Below, one piece after another: positions 2,517 through 39,681 of a DNA stretch of 51,398 nucleotides; position 1 is the stretch's first letter, and each line of letters opens with the position of its first letter. The DNA is from a virus, in IMG/VR virus record IMGVR_UViG_3300003890_000011, positions 30,436 through 81,833 of that record. One strand, 5' to 3'. The notes under the pieces are model-generated. The model had not been told where the DNA came from. It made no database searches and saw nothing but the letters and a program-made list of their open reading frames with translations. The translations under genes were made by a program, and so were the position numbers.

Positions 2517-2529
2517 AAGTAGTTGTTAA
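2517..2529 (-). promoter_or_regulatory. Late promoter-like motif, copy A
   Basis: Minus-strand TTAACAACTACTT, starting directly after the TAA of the 2530-2937 gene and 21 bases ahead of the ATG at 2496. One of seven intergenic copies, all oriented toward the leftward late genes. Confidence 0.55.
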
Positions 2530-2937
2530 TTAAATGACAATAACAGTGAGCTTATACGTTACGTTAGGTACTAATCCCGTCACGTGACTGATTGTCACAC
2601 TTTGATTTCCTATTGGAGTATAACTAATAAAAGGAGTACTTGTCGGATAACTAGTTGAATTTGTTAAATTCTGTGCTCTTATTACCGTCAACCCTCTAGG
2701 ACTAGCCTTACCTACGTTTACCGAAGTAACTTTCAGTGGCTTACCATTACTATCGATAGATATGTCAAATTCAATAAGATTTTGATTTAAGTTATCGAAA
2801 TCTATATTACCATTAACAATGTTTACAGTATCTGACATGAACTGGTTTAGCACGTATCCAAGCTTAGATATAAGAGTCTGGTACTGAGGTTCAAAATCCT
2901 CTGTAATAATACGTTTAACGTTGTTTAATCGTGCCAT
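2530..2937 (-). CDS. Small structural protein of unknown function
   Basis: A 135-residue protein with a helical N-terminal half (MARLNNVKRIITEDFEPQYQ onward) and a beta-rich C-terminal half with many Thr, Ser and Asn. It lies 5 bases from the nozzle gene and ends at the copy A promoter-like motif, so it is probably the last gene of the 8.1-2.5 kb transcription unit unless there is read-through. Its position next to the tail nozzle suggests a small tail or virion component. I do not recognise a family. Confidence 0.5.
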   Translation of the reverse strand: MARLNNVKRIITEDFEPQYQTLISKLGYVLNQFMSDTVNIVNGNIDFDNLNQNLIEFDISIDSNGKPLKVTSVNVGKASPRGLTVIRAQNLTNSTSYPTSTPFISYTPIGNQSVTISHVTGLVPNVTYKLTVIVI

Positions 2938-2942
2938 AGTGC

Positions 2943-5900
2943 TTACCTATACGCTCTACTAGAAACCGCTCTAACGACTGCAGAAACGCCTAAAATACGC
3001 CATTTTTCACGAGCATTAAAATGATCGAACTTCATTGTCAAGTATCGACATCTTTGCTTCTGAAGAGGTACTATAGTTCTAAAAGGTGCATCATTACTTT
3101 CTCCACCCCAGTAGAATTGAGACTGACCATACTCACCATAGCCCCAGTAACCTACTCCTTTACTAAAGAAAGGTACTTCTTCTAGACTTTGTGATAAGTC
3201 AGAAGAAAATGATAATTTGGCACTATAAAAGTTATTCTGGTCAAACATTATTGTAGATTCTCTAATCTGCTTCAGTCCTGATGGATCTCCAAAGTGCATA
3301 GGCTGCCATTGGATTTTACTCTTAATAGCCTTAAATGCTATAATACTACCTTCTTCAAAAGGTACTGAGTGGCTTAGAGTGACTTCATTTTTAGCTACAT
3401 TTACTGAAGTTATAATAGCTTCGTATGAAATTGTGTCGCTAATCTGCTCATAATTCTTAAGACTTGTATCACAAGCTCCGTTATTTAACTGGGAGATCAT
3501 TGTATTGAACTGAGTCTGCATTGTAGACCAAGTTGTAGAGAATGCTTGTACTGTTACTGTGCCGCTTGCATCATCTGCAACTAACTTAGAATTTAAAGCA
3601 TTTAAAGCTGAAGTAATGTTATCGCCATATTTCATCTTTAAAGTAGACTCGTAGTCGTCTTCTGTTAGACCCTTGTCTAGGTCTAATTTTCTTAGAAGTC
3701 TATTAAATTGTGCAACAGTTATATACTGTTCTTGATAGATTACATCTCCAGCTTCTAGACTTGCAGCACTTGATACTTTAAGTACCTTATCGGAAAGAGC
3801 ATTCGAACCTAATGTAAGATTGAATTGTCTGTCCGCAAAATCAGTTCTATCGTCTTCTTTTCTTTCTTGGAATAGATAGTTGCTATTTCCAGATCCTACG
3901 TATAATTTATCGTCTTGAGATAAAACATGGGCACATGTAGCACTTACTGTCCACTTAGTCCAGGTTCTTTCAAAAGTATTATATCTAAAGCATTGGGTTG
4001 CTACGGTATCGGTCTTGATACTTGGTAGCCACAGTATGTAAGCTCTATCGCTTTCATATGCTAGTCCGAAAGAAGTATAGCGATAACTAAACTTAGTATT
4101 TGTTACTTCCGAGATAAGGTTTTCAATATCCCTGGAAATAATGCTTACTCCAGTATCACTAATTGTAACAATACCTTGAGTAGTTAAACAGTATATCTGG
4201 TTATTTAGTACAATTGCGCTATCAGGAGCTATAAGGTTTGTAGAGTTATCTAAAAGTCTAACAGTAAAGTTAGGGGCTACATCACCTGATAGTATGTAGA
4301 CTCCATCTGTCTTTAAAATAAAAAGGTTATCTCGTAGTCCAATGATTCTTTCAATAGCTTCATCTTTTGGTCCGATATCTATGTAGTTGACCAAAGGAAC
4401 AGCTTCTGGCTGGTTTGCCTTTGAGAAGTAAATTCTATTTGGAGATACTAGATTGTCCGAAACTTCTGAAGGAGTAAAATAAAAGGCATTTGCGGAAGGA
4501 TCATCTTCTGTTATTATATTTACTGGTACAGTAAAGTTATCTACATCTACTACCGTAATAGGATATTTACCATATATAGCTGGAGATGAATTTGGACTAT
4601 ATACAATTACTTCTGTACCTGTTGATAGACCGTGTGCTACTTTATTAATCTTAGCAGGACTATTTGAACCAGCAGAGAACTTAACGCTTACTATTGTTTG
4701 ATTCTCAGTTAGTGTAGGACTAAATTGACTTGTTAGAGAAAAGTCTCCTACTGACAAGTAAAACGGAACATCTTCTAAAGCTTTATTTTCAAAAAGTATT
4801 TTACCAGGAAGGTCATTTTCTGCCGATAGGTATGTCGCAGTTACTGGACTATTGGAATCTTGATTAATAACATAAATGAGAGAACGAGCAGTTTCTTCAA
4901 TTGACAAGGCGCTTGATTCCGAACCAGATAAGAATACTTTGTTTAAAGAAGCGTCTTCTCCATCGCCTTGAGTTGTAACAGATATTGCCCATCCAGTACC
5001 TATGTCGATAGACGGACTAGAAGAACCACTATAGGCATCTTCTGTATTACCATTATTCGTATTAGTAATAGTTACTACGTTAGTATTAACTGCTACATTG
5101 AAGTCGTCAAACTCTAGTAATGTTTCGTACAATCTTTGAGCTATTTGATTAGCTGTAGCTCCTGTCAAATCTGTTAGGTCTACAGTAACTCCTAGTCTTC
5201 CTGCGATTGCTGGGTCAACTCCAGAGCCTTTATTAAACCATAGATAGTACTTGACTTCATCGTTTGCGCTATTTAAAAGTATGTAGCTGTTATTGGCATT
5301 AGTTTCTAGAGTATTTGCATAGCTGTCGCAAGTTATGTCTGTTACTTCTGCAGCACCAACGAAAGTATATTCGCTAGTACCGTTTGCATTAGTTACAAAG
5401 AACTTAGAAGAACCTGATACAAAGTTACTTATACCTAGTAAGGATATTTGTAGTCTGTGGCGGCTTTTAGTATTTGCATAAAATACTGAGCTACCAAATA
5501 GTTCAATATCTTTAGCAATAGGTGGAGTATCGTTAGCTTGAAGAATACCTTCCTGGGAAACCGGATTAGTATAGAGGTCTTGTCCATTGTTTCTAAAAGT
5601 TTCGGGAGTATCGTCTACTACCGTAATGTATCCTAAACTAACATCAGTTGATGTTACAGCTTCTTCGAATACTAGTCTCATTTCATCACCTGGATCAATG
5701 TCGCTTAAAATCTGACCATCTACCGGAGAAATGATTTGGGTTCGGTATATTTGATAGAAGAAGTTAGTGGTAATTCCTGCTGGTATTGTAAAAGTTATTT
5801 CTGCATTAGCAGGTTGACCTTCGGCAACAGCTCCGTTTAAGCTAGTTGCCAAAGTTACACCCGTTACAGTTCCTGAAATATTGGTGGTATCTCCGCCTTC

Positions 5901-7755: not shown

Positions 7756-8115
7756 TTACTCCGATTTAGCGGCTAATTGCTTCTTTAATTCTTCAATTTG
7801 AGCTTTAAGTGACTCAGGACTTTCTTCTTCCATTTCAGGAGCTTCTTCGCTTTCTTCTTCACAAGCTGGGCAGCCCATATCGCCACATTCATCACATTCA
7901 TAACCTTCAGACTCTTCGTCTTTCTTTTCCATTACATCTTCAGCTTTTTCAAGACCTTCTTTAAGACCTTCTTTGCTATCAGAAGCAACAGTTACTTTCA
8001 TGAGTTTTTTTCCTAGCACATCTTTAAGATCGCCACGACTTTCACCCATCATACTCATCATTTCTTTCTTAAGACTCTTAAGCATGGCTTTTTTAGCCAT
8101 CATCTTTGCATCCAT
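7756..8115 (-). CDS. Acidic protein with a four-cysteine knuckle
   Basis: A 119-residue protein. A basic, Met- and Lys-rich N-terminus (MDAKMMAKKAMLKSLKKEMM) leads into a very acidic C-terminal half (runs of Glu and Asp). Between them a CDECGDMGCPAC segment at about residues 76-87 gives a CxxCxxxxCxxC arrangement that could bind zinc. The end is a short coiled coil (ESLKAQIEELKKQLAAKSE). It is the first gene after copy B of the late motif and 2 bases from the adaptor gene. Acidic proteins at this place may be chaperones or minor head proteins, but the function is unknown. Confidence 0.5.
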   Translation of the reverse strand: MDAKMMAKKAMLKSLKKEMMSMMGESRGDLKDVLGKKLMKVTVASDSKEGLKEGLEKAEDVMEKKDEESEGYECDECGDMGCPACEEESEEAPEMEEESPESLKAQIEELKKQLAAKSE

Positions 8116-8148: not shown

Positions 8149-8161
8149 AAGTAGTTGTTAA
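8149..8161 (-). promoter_or_regulatory. Late promoter-like motif, copy B
   Basis: Minus-strand TTAACAACTACTT between the stop of the 8162-9016 gene and the ATG at 8115. The ACTAC half can also pair with a downstream GTAGTT (stem AACTAC/GTAGTT, loop of 6). An AAGGAG ribosome site follows before the start codon. Confidence 0.55.
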
Positions 8162-14116: not shown

Positions 14117-15205
14117 TTATGCTAATTGCACAACTCGAACAGATTGAGATCCGTTAGACGCAATAGCCCAAATATTCAAATCTTCGCCAAACTCTAACTC
14201 AAGAGTAGCACCAGCAGAAATTCTTAATCCATTAGCAGAAGTAACGGTATTGTCAAATCCTACGAAAATAGCTTGATTTCCAAGGTTTTGAACAACAATT
14301 TTAGTTCTTCCAGCAAGTGGAGAAGCGGCAAGTTCAGCAGCAGTTGTAGTTACAGTCGCTGCAGCTACGTTAAATCCAATATTTGGCGCAGAGTTTACGA
14401 ATAATCTGCGGTACATGTCAGAGATAAGGTTAGCTTTGTCTCCAGAAGCTGAAATAGCAGGAAGAAGACCGTCAACAGCACGAGAACCTACTTTAATAGG
14501 ATTTTCAGTGTCGACAGCATCATCAGCTACAGCAGAGCTAATAGAAGCTACAGTATAAAGTTGACCAAGAGCATCTACTTTAAGTGAAGCATAGTCCCCA
14601 TCAGCAGAAGTATCAGCAGCCAATGCATCTTGACGAACGGCTAGTACATAAGTACCGATGTCGCCAGAAGCATGAGCAGAGTCTTCAGCTTTGTCTGAAC
14701 CGTTAACTACTGAAATATCAGCATTAACGTTGATAGATCCGTCAGCGTTGATAGCTAAGAAATCTGTACCATCTCCGATCTTGATTGAGTCAGATACGTG
14801 AGTTAAGTCACGGATATCTAAATCAGTTGCAGACACAATCCATGGACTCGTACCTTGAAATACAGTGATTTCATCAGCTTGAGTCAAGTCTCTAATGTCC
14901 AAGTCTGTAGCTTGTACAGTAACAGTATTTCCAACATTGATACTACCGTCAGCATTGATTGCTAATACGTCAGTACCATCAGAAATTGCTACGTTATCTT
15001 GAGCTGCGTCTAAGTCGCGGATATCAAGGTCTGTAGCAGTTACTTCAATAGAAGCGTTAATGATATTTACATCAAGACCTTCTTTACCGCTTACATTTGT
15101 TGAACTGATTTTGGCACTTGCCGAACCGAGTAAGTGTGCGCCTACTTGGTCTGAATCACTAATAAATGATTCGTCAAAAATTAATTTGTCTTTGTCTAAA
15201 GCCAT
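14117..15205 (-). CDS. Virion protein with ATDLDIRDL repeats
   Basis: A 362-residue protein. Three copies of ATDLDIRDL, spaced by degenerate units with LAINADGSIN, lie at about residues 55-160 and are followed by a beta-rich C-terminus (from about 275) paralogous to the 94-residue protein at 13512-13796. It begins with MALDKDKLIFDESFISDSDQ and has a good ribosome site (GGAGAG). Repeats of this kind form beta-helical or trimeric shafts in fibre or head-spike proteins. The hairpin at 14075-14103 follows its stop. Confidence 0.55.
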   Translation of the reverse strand: MALDKDKLIFDESFISDSDQVGAHLLGSASAKISSTNVSGKEGLDVNIINASIEVTATDLDIRDLDAAQDNVAISDGTDVLAINADGSINVGNTVTVQATDLDIRDLTQADEITVFQGTSPWIVSATDLDIRDLTHVSDSIKIGDGTDFLAINADGSINVNADISVVNGSDKAEDSAHASGDIGTYVLAVRQDALAADTSADGDYASLKVDALGQLYTVASISSAVADDAVDTENPIKVGSRAVDGLLPAISASGDKANLISDMYRRLFVNSAPNIGFNVAAATVTTTAAELAASPLAGRTKIVVQNLGNQAIFVGFDNTVTSANGLRISAGATLELEFGEDLNIWAIASNGSQSVRVVQLA

Positions 15206-15221: not shown

Positions 15222-16229
15222 TTAAACCCATGCGATTACTTCCAGAATATTAGCAGCGCTACTAGTCTGAAAATAAATTGTTCTACTTGTAATAGTTGTT
15301 AATCGAAGGCTCTCTTGTCTATAAGCACATCCACGATTTACCGTAAAATATGTCGTTCCAGAAGCACCTAGTGTATAACAAAACTTCACTAACGCTTTAC
15401 TATCTCTAGAACGTATTTCAAATTTATTTGTATTTGCTGGTAACACAAAACTGTATTCTGTATTAGCCAACGGTGCTGCAATGTTTAGTACTGTCGGTGC
15501 TACCGAAAGTCCATCGTCAATTGCTGCATCTAAATCTATTCCTTTCTCAAAAGCTCCAGAATAGATGTTATAGTAATATCCTTTTAGAACCTGTCCATCG
15601 AATAGTGGATCAGTTCCGTCGTATTCAATATCAACCGTCTGTACTAACTGACTTACACCTTGTTGATTAAGAATTGTAAATCCTGTATCAACGTCTAATG
15701 AGTCAGTAGCTACTCCGCTTTTATTAGCGGTAATGTATAATAATGATCCTGATCTTTTTGCTTCAAAGTATTCACTAAAACTACTAGAGTTAAGTATTAA
15801 TTCTGTAGCATAGGCAACAATTGCCGAAGGATCGTTGGTATTAATAGCAACTTCTATTCCTGTGCTATTTGATGGAGCTGGATCTACTCCTGCACCATTC
15901 ACGTTATACCATACGTGAAACTTTCTATCACTTCTTCCTTCAAATATGAAGAAGTACTTATTATTTAAACTACCAGAAACATCAGAACCAATAGATACTT
16001 TTGTTTCATGATGACTTAATCCTACATAGTATTTTATTTGTGTAGGTAAATCATTTACATTGTATGTAGCAGTTAAATAATCATAATGTTGCTTTACTAC
16101 TGTAAGAGCATCTCGTACTCTTAAGTAGTGTCCAGGAAACGAATGTACGTCTTTGATTACTCCGCCATAATCTAATTGGCTTAGAGCATCAACGTCTTCT
16201 ATCCTATTATGATTTGGCTTACTTGCCAC
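15222..16229 (-). CDS. Fibre-cluster structural protein, Ig/beta-rich
   Basis: A 335-residue protein. The N-terminal 60 residues contain SKPNHNRIEDVDALSQLDYG and a VRDALTVVKQHYDYL helix. The remaining beta-rich part (HVWYNVNGAGVDPAPSNSTG) resembles the WYNVNGTGxDPA units that recur in the nozzle protein at 2943-6794 (WFNVSGTDTAP and WFNKGSGVDPAI). Similar calcium- or Ig-like folds occur in phage tail proteins. It lies downstream of a terminator-like hairpin at 16251-16268. Confidence 0.5.
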   Translation of the reverse strand: MASKPNHNRIEDVDALSQLDYGGVIKDVHSFPGHYLRVRDALTVVKQHYDYLTATYNVNDLPTQIKYYVGLSHHETKVSIGSDVSGSLNNKYFFIFEGRSDRKFHVWYNVNGAGVDPAPSNSTGIEVAINTNDPSAIVAYATELILNSSSFSEYFEAKRSGSLLYITANKSGVATDSLDVDTGFTILNQQGVSQLVQTVDIEYDGTDPLFDGQVLKGYYYNIYSGAFEKGIDLDAAIDDGLSVAPTVLNIAAPLANTEYSFVLPANTNKFEIRSRDSKALVKFCYTLGASGTTYFTVNRGCAYRQESLRLTTITSRTIYFQTSSAANILEVIAWV

Positions 16230-23874: not shown

Positions 23875-24339
23875 CTAATCTGCGACGATTGCTTTACCTT
23901 TAAATTTAATTACTATAGAATCTGTATTTGCTTTATTTGAAGCAATGTAAGTGAATTGACCTACGTTAGTTATGTCTAATTCAATGCCAGTATTATTACC
24001 AACGTATTCAACGTTAATGCTAAACGTGGAACCGTTATATGCACCTGTAACAACAAAAGCTTCTGCTTCTGTAGGAGTGGAATCTGTGAATGTACGGGTA
24101 ATAAGACCTTCGACTGAAACTTGCTGAACAACTGAGGTATCGAACGATAATCCTGCAACATCTCCACTAGCGCCATTATTGAGAATAGCTTCTGTAATGA
24201 GGATATCTTCAGGACCTTGGACTGTCTCTAAGGCTTCGGTTACAGCTTCCGCCCAAGCGGTTGCTTCTTCGCCCCAATTGCCATCCCCCTGCACTGGATA
24301 TTCGAACGTTTGATTTCCTATCTGGAGGGTTTTAGGCAT
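23875..24339 (-). CDS. Structural protein downstream of the major capsid gene
   Basis: A 154-residue protein. Its start (MPKTLQIGNQTFEYPVQGDG then NWGEEATAWAEAVTEALE and VQGPEDI) matches a family of small phage virion proteins with YPxxGxxxWG near the N-terminus. A beta-rich domain follows. It lies directly before the 1046-residue fibre and after the promoter-like motif C, so it may be an attachment or fibre-base protein. Confidence 0.5.
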   Translation of the reverse strand: MPKTLQIGNQTFEYPVQGDGNWGEEATAWAEAVTEALETVQGPEDILITEAILNNGASGDVAGLSFDTSVVQQVSVEGLITRTFTDSTPTEAEAFVVTGAYNGSTFSINVEYVGNNTGIELDITNVGQFTYIASNKANTDSIVIKFKGKAIVAD

Positions 24340-24365: not shown

Positions 24366-24378
24366 AAGTAGTTGTTAA
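24366..24378 (-). promoter_or_regulatory. Late promoter-like motif, copy C
   Basis: Minus-strand TTAACAACTACTT, 27 bases ahead of the ATG at 24339 and immediately after the capsid terminator. Terminator followed by motif is the order expected where one late transcript ends and the next begins. Confidence 0.6.
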
Positions 24379-24407
24379 AATAAGAAGCCCCAGCATTGCA
24401 CCGGGGC
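24377..24407 (-). terminator. Rho-independent terminator after the major capsid gene
   Basis: GC-rich stem GCCCC/GGGGC (24387-24391 with 24403-24407) and an 11-base loop, followed on the minus strand by TTCTTATTTT. It lies 20 bases after the capsid stop codon. Confidence 0.75.
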
Positions 24408-25651: not shown

Positions 25652-26555
25652 CAGTTACTTCATATACTTAGCTAGTCGTATATGACCTGACTATATCATC
25701 CTTCTATTGAAGGGGTTGCGCTGTAAGACTTTTTTTGATACATGAGTTCTAGATATCTAAATTTATGTTGCATAGATTTAAATTCTAATACAAAAGATCG
25801 GATTTTTTCCCATATCTTTAGTGAATCTGAATTGTTTATTTTCAAATAAGGATATTGTTTATTTCCTTTTTTTGAATAACAGATTCTTAAATTTACGTCA
25901 AAGTTGGTTTTAAACCAGTCTATTATTTTAGCCTGAGTTTCTAACGTTTGATCACAAGTGAATAATCTAAGTCTTGCTCCATAGCATTCTGTTTTATCAG
26001 CTTTTACAACACTAGCCTCTACATACCCATCATCCATTAACCATACGGCTAATGCCATTTCTGGATGTCTTATAAAGGGAAGTATTCTTGCTAAGTCTTT
26101 CTTATTATTAGGATAAGTAAACTTTTTCCAGGATCGCATTCTCACATCAGAAACTGATAATTGAACTGCTTTTCCTTTGTGGCTATTTCTACATCTTACT
26201 TCTCTTCCGAATATCTCGGTTAGAAGTTTAGCTTTCCATGCTTGATAGTCAGCTTGTACAATTCCATGCCCTATTGTTATAGCAGCACTGGCTTTGTTAG
26301 AAGTTAAGTGTAGACAGCCATCACCTAATAAAAGAAGTAAGCAAAGACTTCTTTTGTCTTTATTCATTAAACTCATATATACTCCAACACCAAACGGTTC
26401 AGGATAAAAAATGTCTTTAGTCGATGAACGTTCCGTATCTCTACGGCTTCGCTGCTGATTGCCCTTTTCATTATAGCAGGGGTTCCAGCAATTCACAACC
26501 TTTTCCGACTTTAAGTCGTGAGGGGTTACACCTCAGTTGTTCTCAGATTACTCTA
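25652..26555 (-). ncRNA. Group I self-splicing intron interrupting the major capsid gene
   Basis: A 904-base intron. P1: exon GUUGUUU pairs with the internal guide GAACAAC 13 bases inside the intron, giving six Watson-Crick pairs plus the U.G pair at the 5' splice site. The group I core is recognisable in order: P (AAUUGCUGGAA), Q (AAUCAGCAGCGAAG), R (UUCAUCGACUAAAG) and S (GAUGAUAUAGUC). P7 forms between GACTA (26418-26422) and TAGTC (25689-25693). The endonuclease gene sits between the two P7 strands, in the P8 region. The intron ends in G at 25652, and splicing keeps the frame. Confidence 0.85.
25696..26376 (-). CDS. Intron-encoded LAGLIDADG homing endonuclease
   Basis: A 226-residue double-motif LAGLIDADG endonuclease inside the capsid intron. 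Motif 1 is LCLLLLLGDGCLHLT (about residues 11-25) and motif 2 is ALAVWLMDDGYVEAS (about residues 111-125). Each has the Gly-Asp or Asp-Asp acidic residue that binds metal at the active site. I chose the ATG at 26376 because GGAGTATAT precedes it. An upstream TTG at 26496 lacks a ribosome site and would add an unlike leader. It would cut intron-less capsid genes at the insertion site. Its stop lies within the 3' P7 strand of the ribozyme, so coding and RNA structure overlap. Confidence 0.85.
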   Translation of the reverse strand: MSLMNKDKRSLCLLLLLGDGCLHLTSNKASAAITIGHGIVQADYQAWKAKLLTEIFGREVRCRNSHKGKAVQLSVSDVRMRSWKKFTYPNNKKDLARILPFIRHPEMALAVWLMDDGYVEASVVKADKTECYGARLRLFTCDQTLETQAKIIDWFKTNFDVNLRICYSKKGNKQYPYLKINNSDSLKIWEKIRSFVLEFKSMQHKFRYLELMYQKKSYSATPSIEG

Positions 26556-26612: not shown

Positions 26613-26742
26613 ATAATGGTCCCTTTTAAAAATTAGTTTTTAAGCCTAAATAGTTAATAATACTAAGTTTTCTTACAGGGTATTTATGAATCCGTCAGGG
26701 TATCATAAAGCCGTAAAAGTAATACTACACCGTGTATTATCT

Positions 26743-26774
26743 AGTAGAGAGAAAGGCTTATTATTCTCTCTACT
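26743..26774 (-). promoter_or_regulatory. Hairpin in the 5' leader of the major capsid transcript
   Basis: A perfect 10-bp stem AGTAGAGAGA/TCTCTCTACT with a 12-base loop, starting 1 base downstream of motif copy D. It is followed by a near-palindrome (TAATACAC...GTATTA, about 26718-26740). With no U-run it is more likely an mRNA-stabilising or processing hairpin than a terminator. The remaining leader to 26613 has no gene. Confidence 0.55.
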
Positions 26775-26787
26775 ATGTAGTTGTTAA
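26775..26787 (-). promoter_or_regulatory. Late promoter-like motif, copy D
   Basis: Minus-strand TTAACAACTACAT, 163 bases ahead of the capsid ATG and just after the scaffold stop. It would give the capsid gene its own late transcript with a long structured leader. Confidence 0.55.
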
Positions 26788-26801: not shown

Positions 26802-27770
26802 CTAATAAAGTCTCATGAAGTCTTCAAGTTTACGTTTTTCCTTAGGAGTTTCGTCCTTAGGAGTGTCAGTAACTTTAGGTACTACGTTAGACACTGTATT
26901 AACAGTTTTAGCCTTCTTGGCTGCGTCTATTCTCTTCTTACGTAAACGGTCAATATTCTTTTGACCAATAAACTCTTCAAGAAAGTCTTCTGGTAGGTTG
27001 CTTAGTAAGTCATTGATTTCTTGTCTAAGCTCTTTACGTACTTGAGGTATAACGTCTTCAGGAGTTACATCATCAAACCCGTTTTCCATTGACCAAAGCA
27101 TAGTATCAGCGATACGAGCTATAATCTTTGGAGAAGCTGAGATATCTTTATGGGCATCTAAAGCCTTGATAATGTTATTTTCTAGGTCTTGAGCAACTTC
27201 TGTCTCAAACTTTTCACGTTTAAGCTGTTCTTCTTGCTCTTCTTTTTGTTTAAGCTTTTGTCTAGCTTCTTCTAGTTCTTTTTGTAAAGACATTCTTTCT
27301 TGTTCTTTCTTTTCAGCTTCCTTTTGTTCAGGAGTCTTACTAAGTTCTTCAATCTTCTGTTGAATTCGCATTTCTGCTAATTGGTCTGGATCTAGTCCTA
27401 GCTCAGCCAGAACATCCCAAGGATTTTCCTTCATTCGTCCAATTTCTTGAGCAAACAATCGCTTAAGTTCGGCAGCTTCATTCATTGCTTCTCTTCCTGC
27501 AGCAGCAAGTTGAAGTTCTCTGATTAGTTCTTTTTCATTATTTAAATCAATCTTCTTAGTAATGGTTTTTCCATTAACTTTCAAGGAATACTCGCGTAGC
27601 ATGTCCTTGATTTGTTGATCAGAAGCACCGTTCTTAGCAGCAGTTTCAATTGCTTCTTTAACTTCTAATACTCCATCTGATGCAGTATCTACGTCTTGCG
27701 TATCCACTATTTCTTGGGTTTCTTGAGCAGCTTCTACTGGTTGCTCTGCAGTTTGTTGTGTTTCACTCAT
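26802..27770 (-). CDS. Capsid scaffolding protein
   Basis: A 322-residue acidic and helical protein. An acidic Gln/Thr-rich start is followed by NPWDVLAELGLDPDQLAEMR (about residues 137-157, found in scaffolds of short-tailed phages). A long coiled coil (about 160-215, EAEKKEQERMSLQKELEEAR) and a basic C-terminus (KKRIDAAKKAKTV, then KRKLEDFMRLY) that would bind the capsid protein follow. Scaffolds guide head assembly and leave before packaging. The position between portal and capsid is the standard one. Confidence 0.75.
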   Translation of the reverse strand: MSETQQTAEQPVEAAQETQEIVDTQDVDTASDGVLEVKEAIETAAKNGASDQQIKDMLREYSLKVNGKTITKKIDLNNEKELIRELQLAAAGREAMNEAAELKRLFAQEIGRMKENPWDVLAELGLDPDQLAEMRIQQKIEELSKTPEQKEAEKKEQERMSLQKELEEARQKLKQKEEQEEQLKREKFETEVAQDLENNIIKALDAHKDISASPKIIARIADTMLWSMENGFDDVTPEDVIPQVRKELRQEINDLLSNLPEDFLEEFIGQKNIDRLRKKRIDAAKKAKTVNTVSNVVPKVTDTPKDETPKEKRKLEDFMRLY

Positions 27771-28148: not shown

Positions 28149-31100
28149 TTAGCCGCCTAATTGTCTAGCCATTGCCTCTTGAGCTGTTTGAGGAACATCT
28201 TCAAATGGAGCCGGAGGAGTAGAAGGTTCAGGAACTGGAGGCAACTGATCCTGTATAGCTACTGACTGAGCTTGAGGATTATTCATAATATCTTGTGTAT
28301 TTTGAGGAGCCTGCGCTTGAGTTGGAGGAAGTGGTTGCTGTTGTATCACTCCAAGTAGTCCTGGGTCTACAGTCTTAAGCATATCAATATGTTCTTGAAT
28401 GTGCTTTAAAGTTCTTTGTAACAACTCAGGGTCTTTACGTAGAATTGGATCAGCAATTACACCTTTATGTTGACGAATATGACTAGCATGATCGTCAGTA
28501 ATAACGGCAATTACTTCATCGCCTTTAAGGAGTGCTTCATTCTCAGCTTTTATTGTATCTAGCTCATTTACTTCATCTTCCATGAAATAATCTAAGCTAC
28601 CAGTATTAAGTACCATTAAGTACTTTTCTGGAGATTTAATTAATCCCATCTGCATTAGGTTTTCTGCAATCTGTGCTCTACCTGCAGTCGTATTATGGGT
28701 TACTGTAAAATCTTTTAATAAGAAATGAGGATCTTCTTTTAAACAAAATCCATAGTAGATTTCTTTATTAACTTTAGTTAGTTTAATTCCATAATTTAAC
28801 CAATTTTTTTGTTTTTTACACTCTTTAGATTGTTTTCTTGGAAGTTTTGTAGGAATTCTCCATGTATCTCCTCCAATTGAAACAATGTTATATTCGTTTT
28901 CTTGTTTACTTTTTTCGGTCTGTCTTTTTAATTTTTTCCTAGATACTCTAAATCCTAAACTTCCTGCAATAAAGCATATATCGTCAGTAACTTTATTACA
29001 TTTTTGAGTAAAAACAAACGTTTGGTCAACCAAGGTTCCGTCTATATCTAAAAACCCTGCTAGTATTTGAAGCCTTGTTAATTCATCGTTATACTTATAG
29101 TCAGCAGGAATGTGCTTATTTTTAATCAAATTGTACTGATTAAAATAATTCAGTACTTTGTTTCGAAGAACACATCCATGACTTTTTTGACTTGTTATTG
29201 TAAAAGTACTTGCTCTTCCTGAAGTATTAGATTTTCTTCTTATAAGAGCTAACCCATTATGATTAGCGTATTCTCTCCAATAATTTTCTATTTCTTTATC
29301 CATGGTGGTAATGCTAGGTTCACATCTATTACCATCTCCTAACCATGATCCTAATATGTAGGGGTCTAGAGTTACGAACTTGTGATCAAAATTTATAGGT
29401 ACTTTAAAACCCATTAAAATTCTTTGATGTCTTTCAGGAAGTTTTAAGTAATCTTTTACAGAAATGTCTATAATTTGACCTTTTTTAACTCCATATCGAG
29501 AATCGGAAGAACAATATTTTAAAGTCATTATATGATTTTCGTTACATTTGTAAATAAAGTTTCCATTTCTATCATGCACTTCATACATTTGTTGAAATCC
29601 TGTTCCAGCAACAGTAACGGTCTTGGGTTTAGAATCCCATCCCATTACTAAATTACCTTCGTATATATCTTCGACTTTTTTAAATGTTCCGTCGTACATC
29701 ATTACTTCTGTACCTTCCGCAAGACACGACATCAAAGCGTTACCTACGTCTACAACAACTCTAGATATGGAACTAATATCATCACTCTTAAACTTTTCCA
29801 TCTTAGTAGTTTGGCTTACTCCAGCAATAGCGATAATCCTAGGTACCTTAGCAAAGTCTTGTAATAGCTTAACTAATCCTGTTCCAACGTCTTCTAATAA
29901 CTGAATATACGATTGTTGTAAACCAGAGATGAATTGTAGAGCTTGAGATTGTACTAGAGCTAAAGCGTTTCCTGATCTTAAGGAAGCTTCTGGATTACCT
30001 CTTGCTACAGAGTTTACACCAGAAATAGTTTCCATTGTAGATTCTACTTTTTGTAAGAAATTAAATATTTCTCCTGGAGTAGCAGTAAGGTTTAATGGAG
30101 TTGGAGCACCTACTTGATTGTTATATTCAATAAAGTTAAGTCCACCTTGTAACTGAGTTACCTTTACGTCATTTCCTCTAGGATTCAAAATACTTTGAAC
30201 ACCAAACGCATTTTGGTTTGTCATAATAGTCGAGTAAAGACTATTAACAGTATCTTGTAAAGGAAGAAGATCAAACATCATAGAATATCCATAAGGAGTA
30301 CCTAGGATGTCTGAAGGAGCAATGCGATAAATGGGAAGTTGACCATACGGCATGATAGTATCAATCAATACGCAGTCATCATGCAAGAATAGGCAGTAGT
30401 TACCCTCAGGCATTGATTCAGTTCTTTTATGGAAAAACTCATAAACCGCAACGTCTACCGTTTCATCATAAGGAGTTAACGTAGTTTTATAGCTACCTTG
30501 TTCTTTGTCCTTTGTAGGGACAGAAAGGATCTTATCTGCGAACTCAGGATACTTCTTAGCAAGATCAAACTTATTTAAGAATGTTCTACAAAGAACCCAG
30601 TCATGTAGTTCTGGGTTTTCTTTAGTACTGTCGAATACTACGTCTAAAGGTGATAGTACGTTGAATTCAACATCTCCTTCATGGATAGGAAACGCTTCTA
30701 GCTTATTTCCAGCTTCATCCAAAGGATTGCCTTCTTCATCATATCCGACAATAGAAGATGGATCTGGTTCGACATAGTCGTGAATTTCACCTCGTGTGGA
30801 ATTCCACTCCATCTTCACATAGCCGGAACCTAGAACGATAGCGTATTCAACCGCTTTTTTTAAATATTTTTCTAGGCGTTTTTCTCTCATGTAGTAATCG
30901 AGAAGGTTATTTGCTAATTTAGTTTGAATTAAAGACTTACGATCTGTATTTACTGCACGAGCTTGGAATGCTGGTCTTGTTGATGTAACCATAACAAGCA
31001 TGTGCTGAGCAATGTTCCTGTAATGGTTTACCGCTAGGTTTACTAGCTCACCTTGTTCTCCACCATATCCTAAAGAATGATCACTATTGTAATAATTACC

Positions 31101-31235
31101 ATGATAGGCATTATATGAACGAGTCAATTTTTCTAAATAATTACTGCTATTTACACTTTTAAACCAAGCACCTGACTTGGACATTAAGTGTGCTACTTTT
31201 CTTTGGGATTCATCGGCTGCAAAATATATATCCAT
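28149..31235 (-). CDS. Portal protein (with intein)
   Basis: A 1028-codon portal gene. The N-terminal 503 codons carry portal features: a long helical start, GEQGELVNLAVNHYRNIAQH, a wing region with EPDPSSIVGYDEEGNPLDEA, and ATPGEIFNFLQKVESTMETI with SGVNSVARGNPEASLRSGNA. A 345-residue intein (residues 504-848) interrupts before TTAGRAQIAENLMQMGLI. Rejoined exteins give a 683-residue portal. The portal forms the dodecameric packaging channel at one vertex. The C-terminal 60 residues are Pro- and Gln-rich. A late motif copy (E) lies 17 bases before the ATG. Confidence 0.85.
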   Translation of the reverse strand: MDIYFAADESQRKVAHLMSKSGAWFKSVNSSNYLEKLTRSYNAYHGNYYNSDHSLGYGGEQGELVNLAVNHYRNIAQHMLVMVTSTRPAFQARAVNTDRKSLIQTKLANNLLDYYMREKRLEKYLKKAVEYAIVLGSGYVKMEWNSTRGEIHDYVEPDPSSIVGYDEEGNPLDEAGNKLEAFPIHEGDVEFNVLSPLDVVFDSTKENPELHDWVLCRTFLNKFDLAKKYPEFADKILSVPTKDKEQGSYKTTLTPYDETVDVAVYEFFHKRTESMPEGNYCLFLHDDCVLIDTIMPYGQLPIYRIAPSDILGTPYGYSMMFDLLPLQDTVNSLYSTIMTNQNAFGVQSILNPRGNDVKVTQLQGGLNFIEYNNQVGAPTPLNLTATPGEIFNFLQKVESTMETISGVNSVARGNPEASLRSGNALALVQSQALQFISGLQQSYIQLLEDVGTGLVKLLQDFAKVPRIIAIAGVSQTTKMEKFKSDDISSISRVVVDVGNALMSCLAEGTEVMMYDGTFKKVEDIYEGNLVMGWDSKPKTVTVAGTGFQQMYEVHDRNGNFIYKCNENHIMTLKYCSSDSRYGVKKGQIIDISVKDYLKLPERHQRILMGFKVPINFDHKFVTLDPYILGSWLGDGNRCEPSITTMDKEIENYWREYANHNGLALIRRKSNTSGRASTFTITSQKSHGCVLRNKVLNYFNQYNLIKNKHIPADYKYNDELTRLQILAGFLDIDGTLVDQTFVFTQKCNKVTDDICFIAGSLGFRVSRKKLKRQTEKSKQENEYNIVSIGGDTWRIPTKLPRKQSKECKKQKNWLNYGIKLTKVNKEIYYGFCLKEDPHFLLKDFTVTHNTTAGRAQIAENLMQMGLIKSPEKYLMVLNTGSLDYFMEDEVNELDTIKAENEALLKGDEVIAVITDDHASHIRQHKGVIADPILRKDPELLQRTLKHIQEHIDMLKTVDPGLLGVIQQQPLPPTQAQAPQNTQDIMNNPQAQSVAIQDQLPPVPEPSTPPAPFEDVPQTAQEAMARQLGG
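28692..29726 (-). mobile_element. Intein in the portal protein (LAGLIDADG type)
   Basis: A 345-residue self-splicing intein, bounded by Cys1 (CLAEGTEVMMYDG, block A) and the terminal HN of DFTVTHN (block G). The next extein residue is Thr, a legitimate nucleophile. Splicing block F reads YYGFCLKEDPHFLL. Block B is unusual: NENH where most inteins have TxxH. The endonuclease part carries YILGSWLGDGNRC (about residues 123-135) and ILAGFLDIDGTL (about 221-232), a double LAGLIDADG active site. Both ends rejoin the portal frame exactly. Confidence 0.85.
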
Positions 31236-31251: not shown

Positions 31252-31264
31252 TAGTAGTTGTTAA
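31252..31264 (-). promoter_or_regulatory. Late promoter-like motif, copy E
   Basis: Minus-strand TTAACAACTACTA, 17 bases ahead of the portal ATG (an ACGAGG ribosome site lies between). The terminase stop is 12 bases upstream. Confidence 0.55.
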
Positions 31265-31275: not shown

Positions 31276-33816
31276 TTATTTTTTAATGTTTAAGACAGTC
31301 TTAACCCATTCCAAGGCACTATTTGAGTCCTCGTCTCTAGTAGGACTTCTAAATACATTCCGTCCTTTTAACTTTCCATATCCTTCTGGAAAAGGGTTTC
31401 TAGATTCCATTACATTTCGCACCAAATAAGAACAAGCTGGAAGCGCATCGCAGTGACCTCCACGAACTTCTCCACTAGGTGAATCTTTTAAGTGCTTAAA
31501 ATCGCTACGAGTTTTATTCCACTGGGCATTCTCTAAATGATATATAAGAGTCTTGCATCTTTCGTGTATTTCTATCTTACCATTACTAATCCACATACGC
31601 AGATTGTTAATGGCAGCATCTCTATTATCTTTTTTTGTAGGAATAAACTGTATTTCATGTAATCGACTTAGATCGTTAATAAGCTTTAGATCATTATCCA
31701 TGATCCTTAAGTAAGGTTGGTTAACTTCTCCAGTTTGTTCATCAAGGAATCTTATAGACTCTATTTCTTTAATACGCTTTGCTAAATGTTGAGTGGTCAT
31801 TTCAGGACCATTCATTACAAGCTCGTCAATAATCTTTAACTTAGCTTCTCTAAAGTCATAAACTGCAAACAATGCCACAGTTAAGTCTTTAAACCCTACG
31901 TCCATTGAAACATAAGCATCATAGAATGAAGGCTTTTCTACCATAGGCTTTACAATATCAAACTTGTGTTCATAAAATTCTGGAACTACAGTGGATTCAG
32001 AAGACTTTGGTATTTCTACAAGATACTCGCATTTGAATTTAGGATTTTCTACTCCACCAGGATAACGAGCAATAACTTTCTGTATCTTTTCTGGAGTAAG
32101 CATTGGAGAATCATAGATAGTATACTTTACTATGTTACCATCTGCTTCAGCAGGTTGAACAAATGACTCATGGAACTCATGGTTAGGGTCTTTAAAGTTA
32201 GGAGTAGATGCTAATACTAGTTTACCGTTAGTAGTATCTGTAGTAGGAAGCATAATACTATTAACGACGTAGTCTAAATCATCGCAAAATCCTGCTTCAT
32301 CTATGATACAAAGATTCGCGTACCCTCCGCGAAGATTTTCGGCATTACCAGAATCAGTTCCTGCTATTTGTATCTCTGATCCATTCTTGAATCTAAAGAC
32401 TTTTTCTTGAGCAAGCCACTCTGGACGTAATTCTTCTGGACAATCTGCAAGTATTTCTCTCATGATGGGACGAATGATAGTACGAACCATTGTTTGCTGA
32501 GGACACGCATATTTTACAATGGCATTTGGTATCTTTACACAAGTTTCTGTAGCAAGAGTACAAAGAACGTACGAATTATGAGTGACTAATCCATTTCCTG
32601 TTAGAAATAAGTGATCAGGTGTATCTATTCCTATGTCGTAAGTTTTAGCTTTGTATTTTTTTCCTAATTTAATTCCAACACTGTCAGGTCTAGTATTGTT
32701 TTCTAGACAATTTTCATATTCTTCTTTCCATTTTTTTCTAGGAACCACTAAATATTCATTTAATTCTTTTAATGCTCTTTTTGCATAGATATTACAAGAA
32801 ATTCTTACTGTATAACAAGGACCATTTACGTATTTTTCTCTATTATCTGCCGAATAGTTACACTCATATTGCCATAAAAACTTGTAAAGATACTTTACTA
32901 CTTTTATCATACTTAACGACTGACTATGAAACTCAATAAATAATCTATTTTTTTTAAATTGAATACTTCCGTCAGTATCTATTAGTCCTGCTAATAAATT
33001 TAATAACGATTCCCTATCCCAATTTTTTATAACATCTATATCAATTACTTTTTCGTGAGCGTATCTTCCTTTGACCCAATCATTGTAATAATTACAGTGA
33101 ACCTTATTTGGATATGTCTGTCCTTTTCTTACTTTATTTTCCGAATTAGAAATGACCCAAGTATAATTATTTTCGCTTTGTCTATAAACCATTTTAGCAT
33201 TTAAAACTTTAGCCACTTTGTTAGGGATGATTTCATTTTCCGATGAAATATGAATATTATTTATTCCTTGTCTAGAGCAACCATCTCCAAGCAATGCACC
33301 TATGGCGTACGCATGCGATTCATTAACTAAACCTCCTGGAGCCTGTATAAATTCTCTAACTATTTTATCTCTTATTGTTAATTCTTTTGTCGTTTTGTAT
33401 CTATATACAAACTTTTCATTTTTATAACAAGTTTTTACTAACCATCTATGATCTTCAGTAGCTCTTTCTATTACTATATTATTATGAGTTAATTCAACTA
33501 CCTCTTTTTCACCTTGAACATGAACCTGCTCAACTTTAACTATAGTTGTAGAATTAGTTTCCGTAGAATAGGCATAGACTTTGTCACCGACTTTTATGTC
33601 TTTAATTAAAACTAATCCAGATGGTGTAAGTATCTCTGTGTCTTCATGTAGACATTTTCCTATTCTTCGGGAACATAGCACAGTAGAAATTGGTTTATCA
33701 TTATCAATGACGTACTTATGAATATCCTTTTGGATACCTTTCAGTTTCCAAGAAAGCTCACCTAGTTCCCATAGCTTTTGTTTTGCTGAATTTACGTCAA
33801 TAGGTTTCTTAGACAT
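31276..33816 (-). CDS. terL: Terminase large subunit (with intein)
   Basis: An 846-codon terminase. After the 360-residue intein is removed, 486 residues remain, normal for TerL. The ATPase Walker A is rebuilt across the intein as CSRRIGKS. Walker B is NLCIIDEAGF, and the coupling motif STPN follows. The nuclease domain has AYVSMDVGF, a middle RIMDND, and HCDALPA near the end, giving the three acidic positions of the RNase H-like fold. The protein packages DNA by ATP hydrolysis and cuts concatemers. TerS lies 2 bases upstream. Confidence 0.9.
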   Translation of the reverse strand: MSKKPIDVNSAKQKLWELGELSWKLKGIQKDIHKYVIDNDKPISTVLCSRRIGKCLHEDTEILTPSGLVLIKDIKVGDKVYAYSTETNSTTIVKVEQVHVQGEKEVVELTHNNIVIERATEDHRWLVKTCYKNEKFVYRYKTTKELTIRDKIVREFIQAPGGLVNESHAYAIGALLGDGCSRQGINNIHISSENEIIPNKVAKVLNAKMVYRQSENNYTWVISNSENKVRKGQTYPNKVHCNYYNDWVKGRYAHEKVIDIDVIKNWDRESLLNLLAGLIDTDGSIQFKKNRLFIEFHSQSLSMIKVVKYLYKFLWQYECNYSADNREKYVNGPCYTVRISCNIYAKRALKELNEYLVVPRKKWKEEYENCLENNTRPDSVGIKLGKKYKAKTYDIGIDTPDHLFLTGNGLVTHNSYVLCTLATETCVKIPNAIVKYACPQQTMVRTIIRPIMREILADCPEELRPEWLAQEKVFRFKNGSEIQIAGTDSGNAENLRGGYANLCIIDEAGFCDDLDYVVNSIMLPTTDTTNGKLVLASTPNFKDPNHEFHESFVQPAEADGNIVKYTIYDSPMLTPEKIQKVIARYPGGVENPKFKCEYLVEIPKSSESTVVPEFYEHKFDIVKPMVEKPSFYDAYVSMDVGFKDLTVALFAVYDFREAKLKIIDELVMNGPEMTTQHLAKRIKEIESIRFLDEQTGEVNQPYLRIMDNDLKLINDLSRLHEIQFIPTKKDNRDAAINNLRMWISNGKIEIHERCKTLIYHLENAQWNKTRSDFKHLKDSPSGEVRGGHCDALPACSYLVRNVMESRNPFPEGYGKLKGRNVFRSPTRDEDSNSALEWVKTVLNIKK
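32575..33654 (-). mobile_element. Intein in the TerL Walker A motif (LAGLIDADG type)
   Basis: A 360-residue intein that splits RRIGK from SYVLC, inside the P-loop. It starts CLHEDTEILTPSG (block A), has ERATEDHRWL (block B, TxDH) and ends TYDIGIDTPDHLFL then VTHN (blocks F and G). The next extein residue is Ser. The endonuclease part has AIGALLGDGCSRQG (about residues 118-131) and LLAGLIDTDGSI (about 220-231), so both LAGLIDADG motifs look intact. Insertion into the ATP-binding loop makes the terminase dependent on splicing. Confidence 0.9.
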
Positions 33817-35835: not shown

Positions 35836-35848
35836 AAGTAGTTGTTAA
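35836..35848 (-). promoter_or_regulatory. Late promoter-like motif, copy F
   Basis: Minus-strand TTAACAACTACTT, 110 bases ahead of the first late gene. It is preceded by an AT-rich stretch (GTATATT), as at several other copies. Confidence 0.55.
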
Positions 35849-35987: not shown

Positions 35988-36015
35988 AAAAACAAGCCAA
36001 TTAACCTAGATTGGC
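35988..36015 (-). terminator. Minus-strand rho-independent terminator
   Basis: Stem GCCAAT/ATTGGC (35996-36001 with 36010-36015), 8-base loop, then TTGTTTTT on the minus strand. No minus-strand protein gene exists upstream, so it probably ends a non-coding transcript. Between it and motif F (35849-35987) I see only AT-rich sequence. Confidence 0.65.
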
Positions 36016-36330
36016 ACCGTCTGTAATGTAGTCAATAAATAACTTGCGTCAACATGATATTATTTGGGATAAGGCTTGTGTCTATTTGTGAGATAGACCT
36101 GTCAACCTACACAGGAGATCGCCATCTCCCGAAGCATGGTGTTGCTTCTTGCCCTGAGTGTGCTAAGGGTTTCACCTTAGTCTCTGCTCATATGGGAACC
36201 AGTTTACCTTTACGAAATCGTAACCCTCTTCTGATTAACCCAATCTACATTACAAAAGATATAGTTCGTCGGCTCTCTTTTCATGCCTATATAACTTATA
36301 CCTTCAATATTTGATTATAAGGTAAAAATA
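36016..36330 (-). ncRNA. Candidate structured RNA 1 (minus strand)
   Basis: A gene-free 315-base region with many stable stems: GTCTAT/ATAGAC (36080-36098), CTGT/ACAG, GGAGAT/ATCTCC with a 4-base loop (about 36115-36130), GAAGCA/TGCTTC (about 36131-36148), CCCT/AGGG and TTACG/CGTAA (about 36213-36226). A terminator on the minus strand lies at its left end, which sets the direction. The only plus-strand frame here (36054-36314) has no ribosome site and an odd composition. No known RNA family is recognised. Confidence 0.5.
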
Positions 36331-36336
36331 CCTTTG

Positions 36337-36365
36337 TTGTCAAATATTGCTATATCCTTTACTTT
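36337..36365 (+). promoter_or_regulatory. Sigma70-like promoter for the first rightward gene
   Basis: TTGTCA (36337-36342), 17-base spacer, TACTTT (36360-36365). It lies about 45 bases ahead of the ATG at 36411. The -10 box is a weak match (4 of 6). Confidence 0.4.
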
Positions 36366-37019: not shown

Positions 37020-37037
37020 CAAGGATTTACCTTTAGA

Positions 37038-37391: not shown

Positions 37392-37474
37392 CAAACTCAG
37401 TCACTTCCTTTATACTTGAAGTTACAAGGACGTACTCTCCTCAAAACCTTAGTCCTTTGTAGGTTTCTCCTTTT

Positions 37475-37508: not shown

Positions 37509-37524
37509 AAATAAACCCCCTTTT

Positions 37525-37562: not shown

Positions 37563-37577
37563 GACCATGGAGAGTAA

Positions 37578-37883: not shown

Positions 37884-38446
37884 TACCCTTTACACTTTCT
37901 TTACTTGAAACTGTATTATCAACCACTTACATTACGTTAACTGCCGAAAAGGTATAGATAAAAAGGCTATAGGTGTATTATCTTATACGTTGTATGGAAT
38001 ATTTTAGTAGTAAGTAATTTCCTGACAATTGAAGGTATCTCTCAAAGATAGTGCCAGAATCGACAAAACATGCCCTAGAATCGACGAGAAGGTATAGGGC
38101 TATGCAAGTACTAGGATAAGGGAAATGGAGTGCGAGAAATGGGATTATTAGAAGTTGAGTGTATTATATAAGTTGTAGAGATATCTGTGTTGTGAGGTAT
38201 AAAAAATTTTTATCCCATCACGCGGGTCACGTGGGGGGGGGTCCCCCCTGCAAGAACCGTGCCAAGTTTACTGCCCACTATAATTGGCACTCATCCATAA
38301 GTTCTACTAATGGGGGTGTCAGAATAACATACATATCGAAAATACTGACAGCAACAATCAATTACTTACAAAATCTTTCACGACTAATCAAGTACTTATG
38401 TTACTGGCATTCACATTGCATATTAGTCTGGTAAGAGAATCATCGT
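37884..38446. other. Gene-free region with unusual G/C tract and AT palindrome
   Basis: About 560 bases without a convincing gene. It holds two AGAATCGAC repeats (about 38053 and 38088) and a CCCTA/TAGGG hairpin nearby. A near-palindrome ATAAAAAATTTTTAT (about 38202-38216) is followed by nine Gs, one T and six Cs (38233-38248). A 7-bp stem GTGCCAA/TTGGCAC lies at 38259-38290. TCACGTGGGGGG (38227-38238) recurs at 39546-39557. This mix could be a replication origin, a packaging-related site or an RNA. I cannot tell which from sequence alone. Confidence 0.5.
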
Positions 38447-38460
38447 AAATGACGCGGTGA
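38447..38460 (+). repeat. GACGCAGTG element, copy 1 (variant)
   Basis: AAATGACGCGGTGA, 21 bases ahead of the ATG at 38481. One of four related elements between 38.4 and 39.8 kb. Confidence 0.5.
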
Positions 38461-38480
38461 ATAAACAGGGAGAAAATCAT

Positions 38481-38612
38481 ATGAAGGACCTAGCAGTATT
38501 AGCAATCTTTATCTTAGGATCTCTAATCATGACTGGATCATTAGTTAAGTCATACGACAAAACAACTCAAGGTGTTCAGTCTTATGCAACTGAAATTGCT
38601 AAGAAATTTTAG
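38481..38612 (+). CDS. 43-residue single-span membrane protein
   Basis: MKDLAVLAIFILGSLIMTGS and then LVKSYDKTTQGVQSYATEIA, with AGGGAG as ribosome site. One hydrophobic helix near the N-terminus (about residues 4-20) is followed by a polar tail. It is a likely early membrane protein of unknown function. The sigma70-like promoter for the next gene begins right after the stop. Confidence 0.55.
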   Translation: MKDLAVLAIFILGSLIMTGSLVKSYDKTTQGVQSYATEIAKKF

Positions 38613-38614
38613 TG

Positions 38615-38643
38615 TTGACAACAAAAAAGAATAGTGATAGAAT
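38615..38643 (+). promoter_or_regulatory. Sigma70-like promoter
   Basis: TTGACA (38615-38620), 17-base spacer, TAGAAT (38638-38643): a near-consensus host-type promoter. It is followed by element copy 2 at 38650-38670. Confidence 0.7.
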
Positions 38644-38649
38644 TAGATA

Positions 38650-38670
38650 TCACAGCAAATGACGCAGTGA
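38650..38670 (+). repeat. GACGCAGTG element, copy 2, with inverted partner
   Basis: TCACAGC, 7 bases, GCAGTGA: a near-perfect inverted repeat around the start of the transcript from the 38615 promoter. It looks like an operator or 5'-UTR hairpin. Confidence 0.5.
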
Positions 38671-38691
38671 GTAATAACATAAGGAACGTAT

Positions 38692-38904
38692 ATGGAAAAT
38701 CAATTACTTAAAGAACAACATGAAATGTGCATCAGGTACGCCAACAGTATGATGAACATGATTAAGATATATGAAAAGCAAGGTGATAGACAGGAATCAA
38801 TTAAGCAATGTGCATTAGAAGGACGTAATGCCCTTTTAAAAGCTAAAGAACTTGAAGCACTACTTGACCAAGCCAATGAAATTACGCTTATTCTAGCTGC
38901 ATAG
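38692..38904 (+). CDS. Small helical protein of unknown function
   Basis: A 70-residue, fully helical protein (MENQLLKEQHEMCIRYANSM; ALLKAKELEALLDQANEITL). It has a strong promoter (38615-38643) and an AAGGAA ribosome site, so it is likely expressed early. No family is recognised. Confidence 0.5.
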   Translation: MENQLLKEQHEMCIRYANSMMNMIKIYEKQGDRQESIKQCALEGRNALLKAKELEALLDQANEITLILAA

Positions 38905-38914
38905 GAGAAGGTAT

Positions 38915-39049
38915 ATGTACGTTTTAGTGTATAGTCCTAAGGAGAGAGTTATATTAAATGGAACTTTAAAAGAATGTATACTTCATTTGTCATGGATAAA
39001 GAGCTTATGTCCAACCAAGTACTCTCAGTATACTATCATTAAGAAATAA
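38915..39049 (+). CDS. 44-residue small protein
   Basis: MYVLVYSPKERVILNGTLKE, then CILHLSWIKSLCPTKYSQYT. The ATG follows the AGGAGAAG ribosome site at 38903-38910. It is the last gene before the terminator at 39074. The length and ribosome site favour a real gene. No family is recognised. Confidence 0.5.
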   Translation: MYVLVYSPKERVILNGTLKECILHLSWIKSLCPTKYSQYTIIKK

Positions 39050-39073
39050 CAAGTACTTACATTCACATGATCG

Positions 39074-39095
39074 CCCACTTTTGAGTGGGATTTTT
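39074..39095 (+). terminator. Rho-independent terminator
   Basis: CCCAC/GTGGG stem with a 6-base loop, then ATTTTT. It ends the small 38.5-39.05 kb transcript. Confidence 0.7.
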
Positions 39096-39120
39096 CTATT
39101 TATACTCACTGCCTCTTGTC

Positions 39121-39160
39121 TTGAGACACTGCTTATTCACGGATAGAAATGACGCAGTGT
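39121..39160 (+). promoter_or_regulatory. Promoter with overlapping GACGCAGTG operator (copy 3)
   Basis: TTGAGA (39121-39126), 17-base spacer, TAGAAA (39144-39149). An inverted repeat ACACTGC (39126-39132) and GCAGTGT (39154-39160) straddles the spacer and the start. No protein gene follows on the plus strand for about 650 bases, apart from a possible 15-codon frame near 39200, so the promoter may make a short RNA. Confidence 0.45.
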
Positions 39161-39239
39161 GTAATGGAGTAATTATACTGGAAAAGGAAAGTTGTTTGGT
39201 ATATGAGACAAGTGTTTGGTAAGGAAGACAGAGAGAGTG

Positions 39240-39668
39240 AGGAGAAGTGAGCTTTTGAGAGGAAGTTTCTTATTTTCACATCTACATTTTACTATGTTTT
39301 ATATGTTGGTTAGTTACCCGTAATACATCAAGAGAGTTACTGTATATTCACTTTCGGGTATAGTATAGCTATATAGCAGATTTTAGCTATAGTTACTAGT
39401 ACTATACCTTTCACCTAATGTGCCCGAACTTTCAGTGAAGGTCTATAGTCGAGATTCCTTAATCTCTGGACGACTTCGGTACCTTAATCTTACCTAGTCA
39501 TTAGTAGGGCGTTCCGCTTGAGTCTTATCCCTTATCCTCAAGTGCTCACGTGGGGGGTAGCATAGCCGATTCTAGCTTTTCAGTCTGATCACCCGGGAAT
39601 GTTACTTCCCTTCAAGATGCTTACTAAGCGCAACTAAGGTTAATCGTTTTTTAACGGTCCCTACTTAG
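39240..39668 (-). ncRNA. Candidate structured RNA 2 (minus strand)
   Basis: A gene-free region of about 430 bases directly downstream of late-motif copy G, so probably transcribed leftward. Stems on the minus strand include GGGAA/TTCCC, CTTGAG/CTCAAG, and GAGATT/AATCTC with an AAGG loop and a closing GTC/GAC. A long stem of TATA and CCTTCAC with GTGAAAGG and TATA, ATAGC/GCTAT, and TACCCG/CGGGTA follow. A CCCCCCACGTGA tract matches one at 38.23 kb. It is unlike tmRNA or RNase P RNA. It may be an undescribed phage RNA. Confidence 0.55.
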
Positions 39669-39681
39669 TATTAGTTGTTAA
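39669..39681 (-). promoter_or_regulatory. Late promoter-like motif, copy G
   Basis: Minus-strand TTAACAACTAATA. The first ten bases match the other six copies. No protein gene lies downstream on the minus strand, only the structured region at 39240-39668. This is the best sign that the motif starts transcription, not translation. Confidence 0.55.

Follow-up and report, generated by a model that had tools for sequence, protein, structure and literature searches.

The word that recurs on the minus strand of this phage DNA is very probably the late-class promoter of the phage lineage. A phage-specific late promoter had been proposed in the initial annotation, and the proposal is supported by the position of the copies, by their strand, by their recurrence in orthologous gaps and by a coordinated drift of the word from relative to relative. 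Across a dozen relatives the motif appears, as judged from sequence, to behave like a start signal of late genes. With moderate confidence we favour the fuller reading in which such a promoter is read by the host RNA polymerase together with a phage specificity factor.

The window, by which we mean the whole analysed stretch of 51,398 nt, comprises bases 30436-81833 of a virus record of 81,833 bases. Since the ends of the record share a perfect 65-base repeat, the 81.8-kb genome appears complete. The minus strand carries the structural genes (terminase, portal, capsid, tail) with a P22/SU10-like virion module; P22 portal, SU10 portal and SU10 adaptor are among its Pfam matches. Genes of replication and nucleotide metabolism (primase/DnaB, family B polymerase, RNR, ThyX, dUTPase, dNMP kinase) are located on the plus strand. 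The arms are divergent and separate at about 36-40 kb of the window. In-frame inteins of ~340-360 aa each are present in the portal (28149-31235) and terminase (31276-33816) genes, after residue ~504 of the portal and at the Walker A motif after residue 54 of the terminase; portal and terminase of the relatives are uninterrupted. The family B DNA polymerase (L006:1620-4606) is split into ORFs of 566 and 254 aa with a 200-aa ORF between them, likely by an intron or insertion, and is a single 701-aa ORF in G002. Between the capsid gene and 26802-27770 lies the ORF 25696-26496, which probably encodes the LAGLIDADG homing endonuclease detected in scans of the whole protein set (PF03161, E 6e-16).

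Copies of the repeat in the window and in related genomes

The useful unit for counting is the 10-base core TTAACAACTA and not the 13-mer. The core occurs eight times on the minus strand of the window and never on the plus strand, and it is the top 10-mer by count on the minus (late) strand; a Markov null gave a mean of 0.22 copies and a maximum of 2 in 300. The 13-mer with three mismatches was discarded as a test because it is too loose (59 found versus 45 expected, not rarer than chance). All seven minus-strand sites of the initial annotation are present, four of them as the exact 13-mer TTAACAACTACTT, two with one mismatch and one with two (Table 1), and all seven are indeed intergenic. Gaps make up only 3% of the late region, yet seven of the eight core copies are found in them. 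The eighth, near the 3' end of a gene, is absent from the earlier list; in G005 a one-mismatch counterpart, ATAACAACTA, is located just past the orthologous gene. One copy had been described as directly following a terminator, and a GC-rich stem with a T-rich tract does precede the copy at 24366.

Table 1. Predicted elements of late transcription in the window, with the genomes that hold counterparts.
Feature	Position	Strand	Description	Counterparts
Putative late promoter copy	2517..2529	-	exact; precedes 628-aa gene (610-2496)	G001, G002, G004, G005, G006, G007, G013 (with G000, all eight genomes compared)
Putative late promoter copy	8149..8161	-	exact; precedes 119-aa gene (7756-8115)	G001, G004, G005, G006
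Additional copy, TTAACAACTATTA	15290..15302	-	in last ~80 bases of 15222-16229, 98 bases before 14117-15205	G005
Putative late promoter copy	24366..24378	-	exact; between major capsid gene and 154-aa gene (23875-24339)	G001, G004, G005, G006, G007, G013, ahead of 154-aa gene
Terminator-like stem-loop, T-rich tail	24387..24407	-	GCCCCGGTGCAATGCTGGGGC-TTCTTATTT; directly upstream of the 24366 copy	
Predicted 5' leader hairpin	26742..26775	-	directly after promoter; -16.3 kcal/mol, 0/300 shuffles as stable	
Putative late promoter copy	26775..26787	-	1 mismatch; upstream of major capsid gene, ORF 25696-26496 intervening	G001, G002, G005, G007, G013; also G004, G006 at matching place
Putative late promoter copy	31252..31264	-	1 mismatch; precedes intein-containing portal gene (28149-31235)	G001, G002, G004, G007, G013, ahead of portal
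Putative late promoter copy	35836..35848	-	exact; late operon head	G001, G002, G004, G007, G013
Candidate late non-coding RNA, ~370-430 nt	39240..39672	-	begins at promoter	
Putative late promoter copy, TTAACAACTAATA	39669..39681	-	2 mismatches; early arm, no ORF downstream	

Contigs that encode the capsid or portal protein number almost thirty in IMG/VR, with one more in GTDB. One phage contig from the genome-collection scan is found in a bin labelled Bacteroidales, a label that does not establish the host. Copies of the element precede the same genes in up to eight genomes, and the core is distributed 28:0 between the late (structural) strand and the other strand (G000, G002, G004, G005, G006). 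A motif search over the full genome and relatives, as suggested at the outset, yielded no further core copy in the remaining 30 kb of the genome (L005/L006) and, in the relatives, copies in the same gaps on the late strand. Loss of the motif in relatives with the same gene order had been named beforehand as evidence against a promoter. G001 keeps the gene order and lacks TTAACAACTA, but its gaps ahead of the same genes carry another shared word, TAACACCCTTATATTA (wTAACACCCTTATATTA or close variants), at ~10 places on the late strand versus one near-match on the other. This outcome speaks for the promoter. The corresponding word is TTAACAAGTTATA in G013 and TTAACAAATATTAAATG in G007/L025, and in L029 it begins TTAACATATAA. 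The diverged words of G001, G013 and G007 keep only (T)TAACA. A TAACA common to all, with a remainder that shifts together genome by genome, is what would be expected if the element drifts with a changing phage-encoded reader. Silvanigrella phage CP017838 was rejected as a carrier of the motif: it shares portal and terminase and has the word only as scattered near-matches. A search of the literature for this word brought up no phage paper among the matches listed.

Site anatomy, leader hairpins and the ORF-free stretch

For the anatomy of the site, 65 copies were aligned that match the core with at most one mismatch, the first T being numbered 0. High information is confined to the ten core bases. 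As the sites were picked by their core, part of its conservation among them is built in by the selection, which does not apply to the missing upstream block: the 65 sites have neither a conserved block upstream nor a separate -10/-35 at conserved spacing. No pattern of TTGACA and TATAAT at a spacing of 16-18 and no conserved upstream hexamer is seen among them, in agreement with the earlier statement that the motif does not resemble sigma70 promoters. Downstream of the core there is a preference for T at position 14 and for purines at positions 15-18.

Analogous capsid-leader hairpins, of different sequence from that in Table 1, are predicted in G006, G005, L014 and L008. The stem starts at position 12-14 in G000, G006, G005 and L014, with energies of ~-11 to -16 kcal/mol, and in none of the four were more than 4 of 300 shuffles as stable; another hairpin follows the copy at 35836 (about 35833-35816). 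Hairpins at the same offset despite differing sequence suggest that the transcript starts there. Purine-rich positions and leader hairpins are located 3-7 bases past the core, and transcription would probably start within about the same ~3-7 bases.

The copy at 39669 had been noted to face a gene-free region, and the stretch behind it is free of ORFs. Over ~430 bases this stretch is homologous to L012, where it is found behind the same promoter, and the two-sequence consensus fold contains 39 pairs, 11 of them doubly compensated, and a long-range helix (AGURGGG:CCCYACU). The folding energy of the single sequences is unexceptional (z -1.25 and -0.77), Rfam gave no match for the ORF-free RNA, and word scans for more copies of it returned only the already-known contig. 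The same arrangement is present in L012, G002 (3987, minus) and G001 (1119, minus); in the latter two a late-type promoter is followed by several hundred ORF-free bases with no detectable sequence homology. These features make a late non-coding RNA from the 39669 copy plausible.

A perfect sigma70 promoter (TTGACA-18-TATAAT) is present at window 36343-36314 on the minus strand, followed by ~310 ORF-poor bases and then a terminator-like stem (36015-35996). Window 35990-36343 (minus) is apparently a second candidate non-coding RNA, early in this case, with no homologue among the loci examined. Good sigma70-like sites are present elsewhere in the early arm. Words of the form wATGACGCrgTG are repeated on its plus strand (38447-38465, 38660-38675, 39149-39165, 39741-39755) and are possibly a shared early leader element.

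From the position, strand and drift of the element we infer initiation of transcription at it, its timing and its reader, and propose the following model. The promoter would consist of wTTAACAACTA as a single uninterrupted element, with an A/T-rich stretch and purines behind it and no -35 partner. Each copy would open its own late transcript, namely those of the operon head, the portal, the capsid leader, the gene behind the post-capsid terminator, the tail genes and the ORF-free RNA. A phage specificity factor made from the early arm would replace or bypass the host sigma factor, and the host RNA polymerase would then read the element, as presumed here by comparison with gp36 in phiEco32.

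Candidate readers of the element

Recognition by a phage-encoded sigma factor or polymerase had been suggested initially. This suggestion stands in part: a phage-made factor is still the favoured source of specificity, but a T7/N4-type polymerase is absent and the motif-bearing genomes contain no recognisable sigma factor. PF00940 found nothing in G000, G001 and G002, T7 and N4 polymerases being detected as positive controls; phmmer with T7 RNAP and N4 gp16 gave nothing significant, and no family of a multisubunit polymerase appeared in the Pfam scans, among the matches listed. Neither PF04542 nor PF08281 detected a sigma gene in G000 or in any other motif-bearing genome covered by the scans; in the controls PF04542 (sigma region 2) matched phiEco32 only and PF08281 (sigma region 4) matched 7-11. 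The sole sigma region 4 match in G000 is the helix-turn-helix of an HNH endonuclease and was discounted. A phiEco32 gp36 / 7-11 gp47 profile found no significant homologue. A very diverged factor may nonetheless be encoded in the motif-bearing genomes. One ORF of G013 (L071:14434-14937, directly upstream of the DNA polymerase) looked ECF sigma-like by eye and was set aside, Pfam and PDB sequence searches being unsupportive; no homologue of it turned up in the remaining genomes or in viral contigs. Given neither a T7/N4-type polymerase nor a recognisable sigma factor, a host RNA polymerase redirected by a phage factor appears likeliest.

When the early arm was scanned against Pfam and PHROG, the only hint of a transcription factor among the matches listed (25 families) was a PhaR-like domain. 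This DNA-binding domain of the PhaR (PHB_acc_N) type, unusual in phage, is found in a 73-aa early protein (40423-40644) and also in G001. Among the non-structural proteins common to all four complete genomes are a winged-helix protein (L006:9436-9891; model pLDDT 82), an adjoining one of 201 aa and an HNH-like one of 145 aa that is related to phiEco32 gp30. The conserved 201-aa protein was dropped as evidence because of its poor model (pLDDT 57). On present evidence none of these three proteins can be named the reader.

The winged-helix and the PhaR-like protein would be the candidates for another arrangement, in which the host polymerase and a host sigma factor act together with a phage DNA-binding activator and the motif is an activator box or an unusual -10. 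We consider this unlikely. Few non-structural proteins are found in every one of the four complete genomes, and the winged-helix protein, which models well as a winged helix, is one of them; the PhaR-type domain (Pfam match 1.8e-14) is assigned to 40423-40644 by signature. The 65 sites, however, lack the separate -10 and -35 described above, the winged-helix protein has no significant structural match, a weak primase C-terminal resemblance in one of its homologues points to replication, and G001 alone has a homologue of the PhaR-like protein.

Less likely still is a phage RNA polymerase, T7-like or of another kind, that is too diverged to be recognised. T7/SP6-type promoters end in ACTATAG, and the variants in L008, L014 and L012 read AACTATAG, close to that end. 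The element is moreover a single block with leader hairpins that begin right after it, and nearly all its variants retain the AACA of the AR9 late promoters (AACA-6N-TA/G). Yet the 6N spacing of AR9 is not kept, the polymerase searches were negative as listed above, and no early ORF without assignment is large enough. That the motif is instead a site on the DNA for packaging, replication or homing, or a signal for RNA processing or translation, would agree with its repetition on one strand of non-coding DNA but is highly improbable: the copies stand at gene or operon boundaries, straight after stops or a terminator; distances of up to 292 bases to the next start and a copy ahead of ORF-free DNA argue against a translation signal; a replacement word fills the same gaps in relatives; and the early-arm genes on the opposite strand are without the motif, the single early-arm copy facing the ORF-free stretch.

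We thus return to a late promoter read by the host polymerase with a phage specificity factor. From sequence alone, the word allows late operons to be predicted in many uncultured phage genomes, together with likely 5' ends in some places, and a word that drifts at fixed positions provides a natural series for finding its reader protein. That a complete genome of 81.8 kb has such promoters, while neither a sigma factor nor a polymerase can be recognised in it, points to a specificity factor that is undescribed or very diverged. We suggest only tentatively that a widespread SU10/P22-like uncultured lineage may combine a fast-drifting single-block late promoter, a reader outside the current sigma and polymerase families and a new ~400-nt late non-coding RNA made from this promoter within the early arm.

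Comparison with known promoter systems

Phage-specific late promoters are known as a kind; new are the element, the lineage and the missing reader. The late promoters of AR9, AACA-6N-TA/G, are read by a phage multisubunit polymerase (PMC5312081). AACA is present in nearly all variants of the element, with T and purine downstream. However, the fixed spacing is not found, since the T required at base 12 is there in only 29/65 sites, compared with a T at base 14 in 44/65; AR9 is an unrelated jumbo phage, and no multisubunit phage polymerase was found here, among the matches listed. With T7-type promoters the element shares a short contiguous block, and some variants end in ACTATAG, whereas the block is shorter here, its upstream positions are unconserved and the complete genome has no PF00940 polymerase.

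The closest known promoters are those of phiEco32 and 7-11. The gp47-dependent late promoters of Salmonella phage 7-11 stand ahead of late genes and are bipartite, GTAAtg-16-aCTA (PMC8948821). Their -10 part, aCTA, resembles the AACTA end of the present core, but no conserved upstream block exists at the present sites. In phiEco32 (Kuravirus) the late promoters consist of a single element, with starts 6-8 bp downstream, and are read by the host polymerase with the sigma factor gp36; the gp36-dependent middle/late consensus is tAATGTAtA (PMC8948821). This consensus differs from our core, and the element is unlike all promoters of the phiEco32 group in sequence; gp36 is detectable by Pfam there, whereas no ECF-like sigma was detected here. 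Both systems nevertheless have one element without a -35, upstream of late genes on the late strand, and a similar order of the late module (terminase, portal, capsid). Likeness to SU10-type phages is seen in the Pfam SU10 portal and adaptor families, which match the virion proteins of this phage. By analogy with phiEco32, a phage specificity factor acting on the host polymerase would be the most likely arrangement.
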